A stretch of 38,336 nt of DNA. It comes from a virus. Both the position numbers and the translations under genes were made by a program. The notes beneath the pieces were generated by a model. That model had not been told where the DNA came from and ran no database searches. It was given only the letters and a program-made list of their open reading frames with translations. Below are positions 281-36,850 of this stretch, piece after piece. Positions within the stretch are counted from its first letter, which is position 1, and each line of letters starts with the position of its first letter. The stretch spans positions 1 to 38,336 of the IMG/VR virus record IMGVR_UViG_3300025070_000094; one strand, written 5' to 3'.

Positions 281-474
281 GTGGGTGAGGTACACCCCTA
301 CATCTATAACATAAGAAAATTAGTTCAGGTGTGTCAAACTGCCGCATATAACAAAGTGCAACAAAGTTGTAACAAAAGTTTATAACATCGGCTACCCACT
401 TAAGAATCACCTATAAAACAACAAAAAAGATTCGTTCTAAAACAAAGGCTTATAAAATAGTTTAAAATTGTGTG

Positions 475-505
475 TTACAAACCACAAAAAAAGCACTTAT
501 ATAAT
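475..505 (+). promoter_or_regulatory. Conserved phage promoter P1 (late operon)
   Basis: TTACAA (475-480), a 17-base spacer (481-497) ending AAAAAGCACT, then TATATAAT (498-505). The same arrangement occurs at 31490-31518 and 36237-36265 on the other strand. The 11-mer GTGTTACAAAC around the -35 box is identical in the 31.5-kb copy. It reads toward the terminase and head genes. The phage-encoded sigma-like protein at 36268-36813 is the obvious candidate reader, but the boxes are close enough to sigma-70 that host polymerase could also use it. Confidence 0.7.
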
Positions 506-588
506 AGTAAGAAAGCTATACTTAAGTATATAACTATAGTTTTCAGCATATATAGTTTTTTCTTCTTTAACTAGTAAAGAAAAAACAG

Positions 589-609
589 ACATAAGTTTAA
601 TACTTATGT
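589..609. promoter_or_regulatory. Operator-like palindrome ACATAAG-N7-CTTATGT
   Basis: ACATAAG (589-595) and CTTATGT (603-609) form an inverted repeat that extends to 8 bp if one further base on each side is counted. The same two arms with the same 7-base gap occur at 36199-36219, in front of the candidate regulator gene. It lies about 80-100 bases downstream of the predicted start of P1, so it would sit in the leader of the late transcript. Confidence 0.55.
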
Positions 610-684: not shown

Positions 685-1143
685 ATGGTTTTGCCGATGG
701 ATGAGAGCCACAAAGCAATTTTACCTGTCGTTAAGAACATGAGCATCCAAGCAATCCCATATAGTGAAGTTATAGCCAAGAAGGTTAAAGAGGGCATACG
801 TAATGGTGTGTCTGTTAAAGATATACTTGCGTCTATACAAAAGTATCAGAATGCCCCTAGCTCTACAGCTACCTTCTATAAGCTCTACGGACAAGACATA
901 GCTGACACCAAAGCTGATATTGTAGGTCAGATAGGTTCTGTCGTTATACAACAGGCTATTGATGGTGACTTTAAGTCTCAAGAACTGTTCCTACGTTCTA
1001 AAGGTGGTTGGTCACCTACGTCTACTGTTAATGAAGTTGAACAGTCAGAGAACCCCGACGAAGACGAATCAGCTATTGACTCCCTAATTACCCTCTTAGG
1101 AAAGACTAACCCCGATGCAACCCCAAGCGAAGATAACAGCTAA
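685..1143 (+). CDS. Terminase small subunit (probable)
   Basis: The 152-residue product is probably the DNA-recognition subunit of the packaging motor. The assignment comes mainly from position: it directly precedes and overlaps the large terminase by 29 bases. Residues about 40-70 look like a helix-turn-helix region, followed by helical sequence typical of oligomerising small terminases, and the C-terminus is acidic and probably disordered. The ATG at 685 has no strong Shine-Dalgarno sequence, and a second ATG at 697 is possible. Small terminases diverge rapidly, so similarity alone would not settle it. It is the first gene of the rightward late operon. Confidence 0.65.
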   Translation: MVLPMDESHKAILPVVKNMSIQAIPYSEVIAKKVKEGIRNGVSVKDILASIQKYQNAPSSTATFYKLYGQDIADTKADIVGQIGSVVIQQAIDGDFKSQELFLRSKGGWSPTSTVNEVEQSENPDEDESAIDSLITLLGKTNPDATPSEDNS

Positions 1144-30706: not shown

Positions 30707-30906
30707 TAGAAGTCACCCCAAACCATACTGCCATCGTCCTTCTCAAATCCTACGGCCTTAACGTAGGTGAAGCCCATAGCTACAGCAAAGTCTGTGAACA
30801 GGTTAGCTAACTGATAGATGTCTTCAACGTCCTCACGATAGATTGTGATGTTACCGTTGTAACCATCCTCTTCTGCATCAGCTACTGCTTCTAAGTTTAC
30901 ATTCAT
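30706..30906 (-). CDS. Small acidic hypothetical protein
   Basis: The 66-residue acidic protein contains NGNITIYREDVEDIYQLANL and TYVKAVGFEKDDGS. It has no recognisable family. It starts at a TAATG junction with the ssDNA-binding-like gene and ends at another with the exonuclease, so it is translated within this replication block and may act with one of them. Confidence 0.6.
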   Translation of the reverse strand: MNVNLEAVADAEEDGYNGNITIYREDVEDIYQLANLFTDFAVAMGFTYVKAVGFEKDDGSMVWGDF

Positions 30907-31457
30907 TAGGCTACCTCAGTCCATGCACCGATGCTGTTAGTTTCTGCAGGTTCGTAGGCTACATGATCTGTAACACCAATAGCGTTCATACGAACACCTG
31001 AACCATTAGAGTAAACATCAAAGATGACTTTAGCTTTCGTACCATTGCCTAACGGCCCATCATCTTCAAAGCTCCACCACCGTTTGTTATCCTCACCTTG
31101 TGTAAGGTCAACGACAGCAATAGGCCCACCATAGTTTACCTCAACAGGCTTACCTTTGTTGTCGGTGAAAGTCTTGATGTTGTCAGAAACTGACCGTTTC
31201 ATCTTCATAAACTTACCGATGCCAAATTCAGCTTCACCATCTACAATCCGTTGACTGCCCATCGGGCTAGGATTTAAACCTTCTGCAAGTAACTTGTCGA
31301 TGTCCTCTTCATTAGTGAAGTATGCGTTCATTACATACTGACCACCTTTGTCTGCAATTTGCTTTGCAATCGTATTCCCATTCGGGTCTCCCATGTCTGC
31401 ATTTTCTGGGAATACTTTAGCATATTGTAAGACCATTTCCATTTCATATCGTGCCAT
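30906..31457 (-). CDS. Probable ssDNA-binding protein (T7 gp2.5-like role)
   Basis: The 183-residue protein is beta-rich with an OB-fold-like C-terminal half (AKVIFDVYSNGSGVRMNAIG). It begins ARYEMEMVLQYAKVFPENAD, a pattern found in single-strand-binding proteins of T7-like marine phages. It lies between the polymerase and the exonuclease. It lacks the very acidic C-terminal tail usual for such proteins (it ends GAWTEVA), so the call is moderate. It has its own conserved promoter at 31490-31518, suggesting a need for high expression. Confidence 0.6.
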   Translation of the reverse strand: MARYEMEMVLQYAKVFPENADMGDPNGNTIAKQIADKGGQYVMNAYFTNEEDIDKLLAEGLNPSPMGSQRIVDGEAEFGIGKFMKMKRSVSDNIKTFTDNKGKPVEVNYGGPIAVVDLTQGEDNKRWWSFEDDGPLGNGTKAKVIFDVYSNGSGVRMNAIGVTDHVAYEPAETNSIGAWTEVA

Positions 31458-31489: not shown

Positions 31490-31518
31490 TATATAAGTGC
31501 TTTTTTCGCAGTTTGTAA
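31490..31518 (-). promoter_or_regulatory. Conserved phage promoter P2 (ssDNA-binding protein operon)
   Basis: Read on the minus strand: TTACAA (31518-31513), a 17-base spacer ending AAAAAAGCACT (31512-31496), then TATATA (31495-31490) and TAATT. The box order and spacing are identical to P1 at 475-505 and P3 at 36237-36265. It lies in the 83-base gap between the polymerase stop and the ssDNA-binding gene, one of the few gaps in the leftward operon. Confidence 0.7.
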
Positions 31519-31540
31519 CACTAAAGTAGAAATTTATTTT

Positions 31541-35383: not shown

Positions 35384-36166
35384 CTAGTTTACAACTTTAA
35401 GTTCTGGTTTCTCTGTCAAGAAGTCTTGTAATTCTGGTTCTACAAGGTCTAACACTTCCTTTAACGACAAAAACCATTTTGCATAGTCTCTTGCGATACT
35501 TAATCCTACGTCATCTTGATCATATCCTTCCGTTATCTTATCCAGAAGCACCTGTGCAGCATCTTCTGTATTTCCACTGTACCGCTTGCTGTACATCTGT
35601 GCGATACCTTTAATTGCACCCATAGCCTCTGACACATTGTAGTCTGGTACAGTTGGCATGGATGCCTTACGTTCTTTTACTTTCTCCGCTGCCTGAAACG
35701 GCGTTATCTTTCCCTCATCTAAGTCAGTATTTACATCATTAAACTCAGGTAATGTTCTAGCGTCATTGTAGTTGGCCTTAGTCTCATTTACCTCTGGTGC
35801 AGTCATAGGTTTATCTGACGACACAATTTCTTCACGTAATTCCTCTGGGGCAGATAGGAGTGCCTCTACAGCGTCATGACTAAAGTTTTGTACCGTGTAC
35901 GGTACTTTTCTAATCCTGTTTAATCTTTTACCGTATTGATAAGAAATTCCACAATCATCAGCAAACCTGCCAACAAACCCTGCCATCTTGTTGTTTTCTG
36001 ACAGGTGAATATCAGCAGCCCTGTTCATCCATTCTAGCTTACGATGAAAGGCACTGCCCATATCAACATCAGCTTGCTTAAAGCCCTCAACGCAATCATG
36101 CCAGTTGTAAACGACATCAGAAGATGCCTTAGCCATAAGTTCATCAAAGTATTCGTCATCATCCAT
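35384..36166 (-). CDS. Candidate DNA-binding regulator (autoregulated?)
   Basis: The 260-residue acidic protein has a helix-turn-helix-like segment near 78-105 (GFVGRFADDCGISYQYGKRL, NRIRKVP) and helical flanks including ITPFQAAEKVKERKA. It may be a ParB-like or replication regulator; the family is not certain. I chose ATG 36166, with AGAAGGAAA upstream, over ATG 36202. Its leader holds promoter P3 and the palindrome ACATAAG-N7-CTTATGT. The palindrome recurs before the late operon, which suggests the protein binds both sites. Confidence 0.5.
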   Translation of the reverse strand: MDDDEYFDELMAKASSDVVYNWHDCVEGFKQADVDMGSAFHRKLEWMNRAADIHLSENNKMAGFVGRFADDCGISYQYGKRLNRIRKVPYTVQNFSHDAVEALLSAPEELREEIVSSDKPMTAPEVNETKANYNDARTLPEFNDVNTDLDEGKITPFQAAEKVKERKASMPTVPDYNVSEAMGAIKGIAQMYSKRYSGNTEDAAQVLLDKITEGYDQDDVGLSIARDYAKWFLSLKEVLDLVEPELQDFLTEKPELKVVN

Positions 36167-36198
36167 ACTTATGTTTCCTTCTGTAGTAGTAATAGTAT

Positions 36199-36219
36199 AC
36201 ATAAGACTAAAACTTATGT
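36199..36219. promoter_or_regulatory. Operator-like palindrome ACATAAG-N7-CTTATGT
   Basis: ACATAAG (36199-36205) and CTTATGT (36213-36219) are separated by 7 bases, the same as at 589-609. It lies about 10-30 bases downstream of the predicted start of promoter P3. A further half-site CTTATGT lies at 36170-36176, next to the start codon of the candidate regulator. Binding by that regulator is inference. Confidence 0.6.
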
Positions 36220-36236
36220 TTTACAAGGGACACTTG

Positions 36237-36265
36237 CTTATAAGTGCTTTTTGTTGATTTAGTAA
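36237..36265 (-). promoter_or_regulatory. Conserved phage promoter P3 (regulator operon)
   Basis: On the minus strand: TTACTA (36265-36260), 17 bases ending AAAAAGCACT (36259-36243), then TATAAG (36242-36237). It shares box order, exact spacing and the 14-mer AAAAAGCACTTATA with P1 and P2. It lies just after the sigma-like gene stop and drives the candidate regulator and perhaps the replication genes beyond. Confidence 0.7.
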
Positions 36266-36267
36266 CA

Positions 36268-36813
36268 TCACAAATTGTTACGGATTTTTTCGAGTGCTGC
36301 TTTTTCGTGTCGTGATACCCACATTTTGTTACGACCCATATGAACACCTACATCATCTTGTGTAAGGTCATCCCAGTATCTCATACGAATGATTGCCCAC
36401 TCTTCTTGTGTTAGGTGGCTGACAGCGACAGTCTGAACCCTAGCAAACCATTCTTTCTGTTCGTACAGGTCTTCTGTCGATGGTGCTTGCGACATGTATT
36501 CTTCATACTCAACAGAATCAGCATACAGTGCCTGATGTAAGGCAGTAGCAGTCCAACCATCAACATCATCATCAGCACTCATTGCCTTTGCTTGATGCGA
36601 CTTAGGCACTTTAACAGGTGATCTAGACAAGTTGTAATACTCATTCATCACTGCTTGTGCATGAGAATACAGTAGGTTCTTGTCGGTTTTACCTTCAGCG
36701 ACCATTTCTAGCACTTTTACGACACCTTCAGACACTAGGTCGTCATACTCTTGTGGATCGTTATATTTCCTCGCTAGGGATCGACATATTTTCATAATAT
36801 CATCGTTATTCAT
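36268..36813 (-). CDS. Sigma-70-family transcription factor
   Basis: The 181-residue protein has the two-domain layout of small sigma factors. Residues 5-65 resemble region 2 (SLARKYNDPQEYDDLVSEGV, then VKVLEMV and NEYYNLSRSP). Residues 126-180 resemble region 4, with a helix-turn-helix (LTQEEWAIIRMRYWDDLTQD, GVHMGRNKMWVSRHEKAALE). The linker is acidic. ATG 36813 is preferred because AAGGAG lies 7 bases upstream; ATG 36819 would be only 1 base from it. It would direct host polymerase to phage promoters, the three shared ones being candidates. Confidence 0.75.
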   Translation of the reverse strand: MNNDDIMKICRSLARKYNDPQEYDDLVSEGVVKVLEMVAEGKTDKNLLYSHAQAVMNEYYNLSRSPVKVPKSHQAKAMSADDDVDGWTATALHQALYADSVEYEEYMSQAPSTEDLYEQKEWFARVQTVAVSHLTQEEWAIIRMRYWDDLTQDDVGVHMGRNKMWVSRHEKAALEKIRNNL

Positions 36814-36850
36814 TATCATTCTCCTTTTATTATTAATACTGCAGCTTTTG

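Follow-up and report, generated by a model that had tools for sequence, protein, structure and literature searches.

A candidate paired-box operator beside probable phage sigma-factor promoters in the replication and late leaders of a marine phage

In the OL and OR regions of phage lambda, several similar operators lie near the promoters of two operons and are bound cooperatively by one regulator. The operators of TrpR and MetJ are built from short palindromic boxes in tandem, occupied by cooperating dimers at a pitch of 8 bp. A different arrangement is found in phiEco32 and phage 7-11, whose phage-encoded sigma factors act with dedicated low-copy promoters (PMC4331800). The phage analysed here resembles the last two in combining a sigma-70-family factor with a handful of well-conserved promoters that lie between genes and mark out gene classes. 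In contrast to them, its three promoters per genome switch jointly across relatives with sigma regions 2.4, 3.0 and 4.2, a paired-box element is added to two of them, and no anti-sigma gene was identified here. Similar box copies near the promoters of two operons recall OL and OR and suggest one regulator that binds cooperatively, but these boxes are 8 bp long, oriented, set at a pitch of 11-13 bp and placed downstream of the promoter, and no repressor gene was identified. Short palindromic boxes in tandem are also the hallmark of the TrpR and MetJ operators, although the pitch here is 11-13 bp rather than 8 bp; no TrpR or MetJ homologue is common to the box-bearing phages, and a Trp_repressor match in gp12 of phage CRP-6 is sub-threshold (E 0.012).

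The window, by which we mean the whole stretch of DNA analysed, comprises the 38,336 bases of a phage record. Among its products are a Mu-type portal, terminase, class II ribonucleotide reductase, DNA polymerase A, primase-helicase, ThyX and the sigma-70-family factor; no integrase turned up among the genes examined. The closest relative in culture, Roseobacter phage CRP-6, is 77% identical in the primase and 81% identical in the portal, and it stands for a group of its own among phages of the RCA lineage (PMC6918029). From the right end the replication genes run leftward; the late genes run rightward from base 685, beginning with a probable small terminase (685-1143, plus strand; by comparison with CRP-6 gp65 the start may be 739), after which comes the terminase large subunit (1115-2473). 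The elements described below probably schedule gene expression in the abundant, little-studied marine group of CRP-6-type phages that infect the Roseobacter RCA lineage.

A phage sigma factor and its probable promoters

The motif TGTTAC-N14-GCACTTATA occurs in exactly three exact copies in the window, all of them intergenic and each pointing at a gene; allowing up to two mismatches gives 4 matches against 0.15 expected. One copy precedes the late operon (473-501, plus strand), with the -35 element TGTTAC at 473-478 and the extended -10 element GCACTTATA at 493-501, and another (36239-36267, minus strand) directly follows the stop codon of the sigma gene in the early leader. These are the two copies that the original prediction had placed beside its palindromes. 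The third, which it did not mention, lies at 31492-31520 (minus strand) before the gene at 30906-31457, and no boxes follow it. The 183-residue product of 36268-36819 (minus strand) is a true member of the sigma-70 family, in which both domain 2 and domain 4 are present, as judged from matches to TIGR02937 (E 1.1e-17) and Pfam Sigma70_r4 and from Foldseek hits to sigma factors (prob 1.00). We propose that this factor probably reads the shared promoter.

Matched promoter sets are also present in relatives, with three copies each in G001, G004 and G005, and in CRP-6 two found by pattern and a third seen separately. Across these phages the -35 and extended -10 elements change together at all promoter copies. 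In G005, TGTATA-N14-GTACATATA stands at all three places where the window has its own version. At the late and 31.5-kb copies, the 60-base flanks of the window and G005 are identical at 54-60 of 60 positions, whereas the promoters themselves match at 23 of 29 and 18 of 29; at the early copy the downstream flank differs too, because another gene follows.

These exchanges track three parts of the sigma factor, named here after established sigma anatomy and by aligning them with sigma-B, whose structure is known, an alignment that is weak over this stretch. For region 3.0 and the extended -10, KS[HN] goes with GCAC, VQGK with GTAC and [VA]GG with GTCG. Region 2.4 follows the base before TATA, with YSHAQ, YSYAQ or YSYVQ accompanying T and HKSAA or YKSAA accompanying A, and region 4.2 follows the -35, NKMWVSR occurring with TGTTAC and QVWV with TGTATA. 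When each sigma was left out in turn, residues 50-80 predicted its extended -10 with a score of 16.3 of 18, other parts of the protein reaching 7-9. Residues 131-183 predicted the -35 in 19 of 20 cases; other sigma parts did nearly as well (18 of 20), and shared ancestry inflates the covariation counts, those for the -35 in particular. The first table held 17 sigmas, and three found later (L420, L421 and L422) agree with it. L421 and L422 share a common C-terminal half and differ mainly in residues 29-57; the base before TATA is the one difference between their promoters.

Across the sigmas L265-L291 and L420-L422, regions 2.4, 3.0 and 4.2 covary with distinct promoter bases, and the modules recombine independently between phages. 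This independent recombination, seen in L283 versus L284, argues from sequence that the association of the extended -10 with the sigma factor is functional. On balance we lean towards a private modular transcription code, in which the -35, the extended -10 and the base before TATA would be exchanged together, genome-wide, with the 4.2, 3.0 and 2.4 modules of the sigma factor, and a separate paired-box operator would mark only the replication and late operons. The covariation amounts to a natural specificity table for a compact sigma factor and bears on why phages diversify sigma specificity.

Paired boxes in the replication and late leaders

The original prediction described a 21-base palindrome, ACATAAG-N7-CTTATGT, at 589-609 and 36199-36219. 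Both copies are exact, the whole record holds no others, and the pattern appeared in 0 of 100 dinucleotide shuffles, which rules out a chance origin. Each copy lies 3′ of the shared promoter as claimed, at unequal distances, 87 bp for the left copy and 19 bp for the right one. The third half-site also exists; its position is 36168-36174, within an 8-bp box at 36167-36174, and not 36170-36176. Two of the three promoter-bearing leaders, those of the replication and late operons, share one element besides the promoter, and this element recurs in many relatives, clustered in leaders.

The perfect palindrome is not the conserved unit, as most relatives have direct or mixed pairs. What relatives conserve are two oriented boxes of 8 bp, ACNTAAGT with consensus ACTTAAGT, at a pitch of 11-13 bp; the box is near-palindromic, its third base being free. 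Palindromic symmetry is lineage-specific, and the window's reversed second box, from which the perfect palindrome arises, is an exception among oriented boxes. A scan of viral_contigs with the exact 21-base pattern mixed unrelated contigs with relatives among the matches listed and served only as a pointer.

The window has two pairs in its late leader; its early leader has one pair and, at the start codon, a further single box. The first late pair (520-540, plus strand) comprises ACTTAAGT at 520-527 and ACTATAGT at 533-540, at a pitch of 13 bp. Lying 18 bp past the promoter, where relatives have their first pair, this imperfect pair is the left counterpart of the right palindrome, and the palindrome at 589-609 (plus strand; ACATAAGT at 589-596, ACTTATGT at 602-609) is the second late pair. 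Upstream of the promoter, a single box ACTTAAGA (398-405, plus strand) sits in a conserved context, CTACCCACTTAAG, that is found in 8 others of the 34 representative leaders scanned; the CRP-6 box at this place is ACTATAGT. The early pair (36199-36219, minus strand) consists of ACATAAGT at 36219-36212 and TCTTATGT at 36206-36199, starting 19 bp past the promoter. The third early box, ACATAAGT at 36167-36174 (minus strand), falls between the Shine-Dalgarno sequence and the ATG of a 260-codon gene and is retained in relatives even where the primase comes next, CRP-6 having ACGTAAGT there.

Comparison among relatives establishes the boxes together with their pitch, orientation, position and conservation. 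The 34 de-duplicated late leaders contain 89 boxes (17.8 expected from shuffles) and 23 pairs at 12-13 bp (0.05 expected), with 5 further pairs at 11 bp and none at 8-10 or 14-23 bp. The 18 early leaders contain 53 boxes against 5.2 expected and 17 pairs at 12-13 bp against 0.02; the box consensus was picked from the same data, which inflates these excesses over shuffles but does not explain the sharp pitch. The only pair outside 11-13 bp in the range of 8-23 bp has a pitch of 16 and lies in an early leader. ACTTAAGT is the most frequent palindromic octamer; a literature search on the octamer found no paper. Read along the transcript, variants fall at position 3 of the box 18 times and at position 6 once, and it is on this account that we call the box oriented. 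The pitch shifts by 1-2 bp between lineages, a variation uncommon for a single rigid dimer.

In the genomes counted, the non-coding boxes keep to these two leaders. All 6 non-coding boxes of G001, a complete genome whose ends overlap (125 of 127 bases), lie within the early and late leaders, and so do the five of CRP-6, which has a layout similar to that of the window and a different promoter sequence. The first pair begins 12-19 bp past the promoter in the window, CRP-6, G001 and G004, and in most relatives a second pair or box follows at a distance of 58-76 bp, which is 91 in L095. G007, which encodes a protein of the 260-residue type considered below, has a ACTATAGT/ACGTAAGT pair in its late leader and was for this reason left out as a case of double dissociation between protein and boxes. 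ACTTAAGT boxes are absent from the early and late leaders of G002 and G003. There the two leaders share another 20-base element, TTGTAGGTATGGTAGTAATA, in place of the boxes (L384-L388).

The protein encoded beside the early palindrome

The gene immediately 3′ of the right palindrome (35384-36166, minus strand) encodes a 260-residue protein with an N-terminal part that weakly resembles the ParB DNA-binding domain, a hypervariable stretch at residues 70-105 and a conserved C-terminal domain. It has no match in Pfam, PHROGs or NCBIfam. Foldseek returned a weak ParB-like match (prob 0.77, E 0.36) for a low-confidence model (pLDDT 64), and a helical HTH-like segment is predicted at residues 64-87. 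Its position and these features underlie the original prediction of an autoregulator that binds the palindrome through a helix-turn-helix and also controls the late genes, a reading that we now regard as highly doubtful.

The gene is absent from the complete genome G001, from CRP-6 and from the partial records G004 and G005, all of which retain boxes. G001, a close relative, even has the same late palindrome as the window, and its early leader, which runs directly into the primase, contains three boxes. Where the protein is present, its DNA-binding region and the boxes do not covary: the leader of L004 differs from that of the window by one base and retains its palindrome and third box, together with a different HTH-like stretch in the protein, and L008 shows the reverse, with residues 70-82 nearly all as in the window and diverged boxes. 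L021 and L024 have an entirely different domain as their N-terminal half, and the same leader is found before the primase or before a protein with a different N terminus. Because the boxes are kept without the gene and the HTH region is uncoupled from them, the 260-residue protein is, on these comparisons, probably not their reader. Co-regulation of the replication and late genes survives from the original prediction and autoregulation by this protein does not, which corrects a plausible but probably wrong assignment of an operator to a neighbouring HTH-like gene.

Among proteins of this type (from the window, L004, L007, L008, L021, L024, L027-L030 and L252-L264), the conserved C-terminal domain, about residues 158-260, follows N-terminal parts that resemble DNA-binding regions and are either exchangeable or hypervariable. 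Most of the differences between proteins that are 90% identical fall in residues 70-105, a pattern that looks like diversifying selection on target specificity.

Candidate readers of the boxes

We think there is a good chance that the replication and late leaders carry a paired-box operator beside a phage-sigma promoter. The sigma factor would start all three transcripts, with predicted starts just after the GACGTCATA elements in the three leaders. Two oriented 8-bp boxes just downstream of the start would form the operator, and a candidate DNA-binding protein, of phage or host, may bind the pairs cooperatively. The bound factor would sit between roughly +10 and +30, with a second position some 70 bp further along, and would hold back or time sigma-driven replication and late transcription; activation instead of repression is equally compatible. 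The third sigma operon, at 31.5 kb, would lie outside the control of the box factor. Sigma promoter and paired box together make up a testable unit, in which the paired-box element is of interest and the concerted sigma-promoter code more so.

The sole transcription factor common to the box-bearing phages is the sigma factor, which we consider an unlikely box reader on two grounds, namely that box-less phages have it too and that the geometry is unsuited to a -35/-10 pair. The boxes might instead be promoter elements for the phage sigma or a host sigma, and they do lie near TATA-like stretches such as CTTATGTATACT. This is very improbable, as identical elements 11-13 bp apart are unlike a -35/-10 pair, the TATA-like sequence after the pair is inconsistent, and the window and G005 differ jointly in sigma and promoter with their boxes unchanged. 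Scans of non-structural ORFs in CRP-6 and G001 found no shared HTH or RHH family beyond sigma. This lack of a shared phage candidate would suit a host regulator exploited by the phage, such as, where the pitch is 11 bp, a CtrA-like response regulator; of the lineages with this pitch, L105 and L110 literally contain TTAA-N7-TTAA, the CtrA box of other alphaproteobacteria. The window's pairs, however, have a 13-bp pitch and ATAA cores, most relatives have pitches of 12 or 13 bp with cores of ATAA or GTAA, which CtrA would not be expected to recognise, and G002 and G003, whose late genes are otherwise similar, lack the boxes. A host regulator is thus a conceivable reader but, in our estimate, an unlikely one.

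A reader acting on RNA stays compatible with the data because all pairs are oriented and lie in presumably transcribed leader DNA. The palindrome could form a hairpin in the 5′ leader, akin to a lambda nut site, an HK022 put site or a stability hairpin: every pair is downstream of the promoter, the variants are strongly oriented (18 versus 1), and the window's copies can form a stem of 8 or 7 bp. Compensatory change, however, preserves the stem only in the window-type ACATAAGT/ACTTATGT pair, most variant pairs break it (ACTTAAGT/ACATAAGT, ACGTAAGT/ACGTAAGT), and the conserved single box sits upstream of the promoter. We therefore rejected the hairpin as a general explanation and consider it improbable; a linear motif read in single-stranded RNA is possible. 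The paired-box operator, bound as DNA, is the reading we prefer.

Several further features stood out. Directly 5′ of the small terminase gene, at 655-700 and in the late leaders of relatives, are conserved non-coding blocks, CAACCA..ACG.AAC.TTTC and GCCGATGG, possibly a packaging site. At the left end of the window, TGTGATCACA, a perfect 10-bp palindrome, occurs in two copies (53-65 and 86-98) within 45 bases. Early small ORFs of CRP-6 (L229) and G001 (L382) match DUF1127 (E 2e-12 and 5e-13, respectively) and also DUF1289, at 1.5e-17 in G001 and weakly, at 0.033, in CRP-6; both families are better known from alphaproteobacterial genomes.
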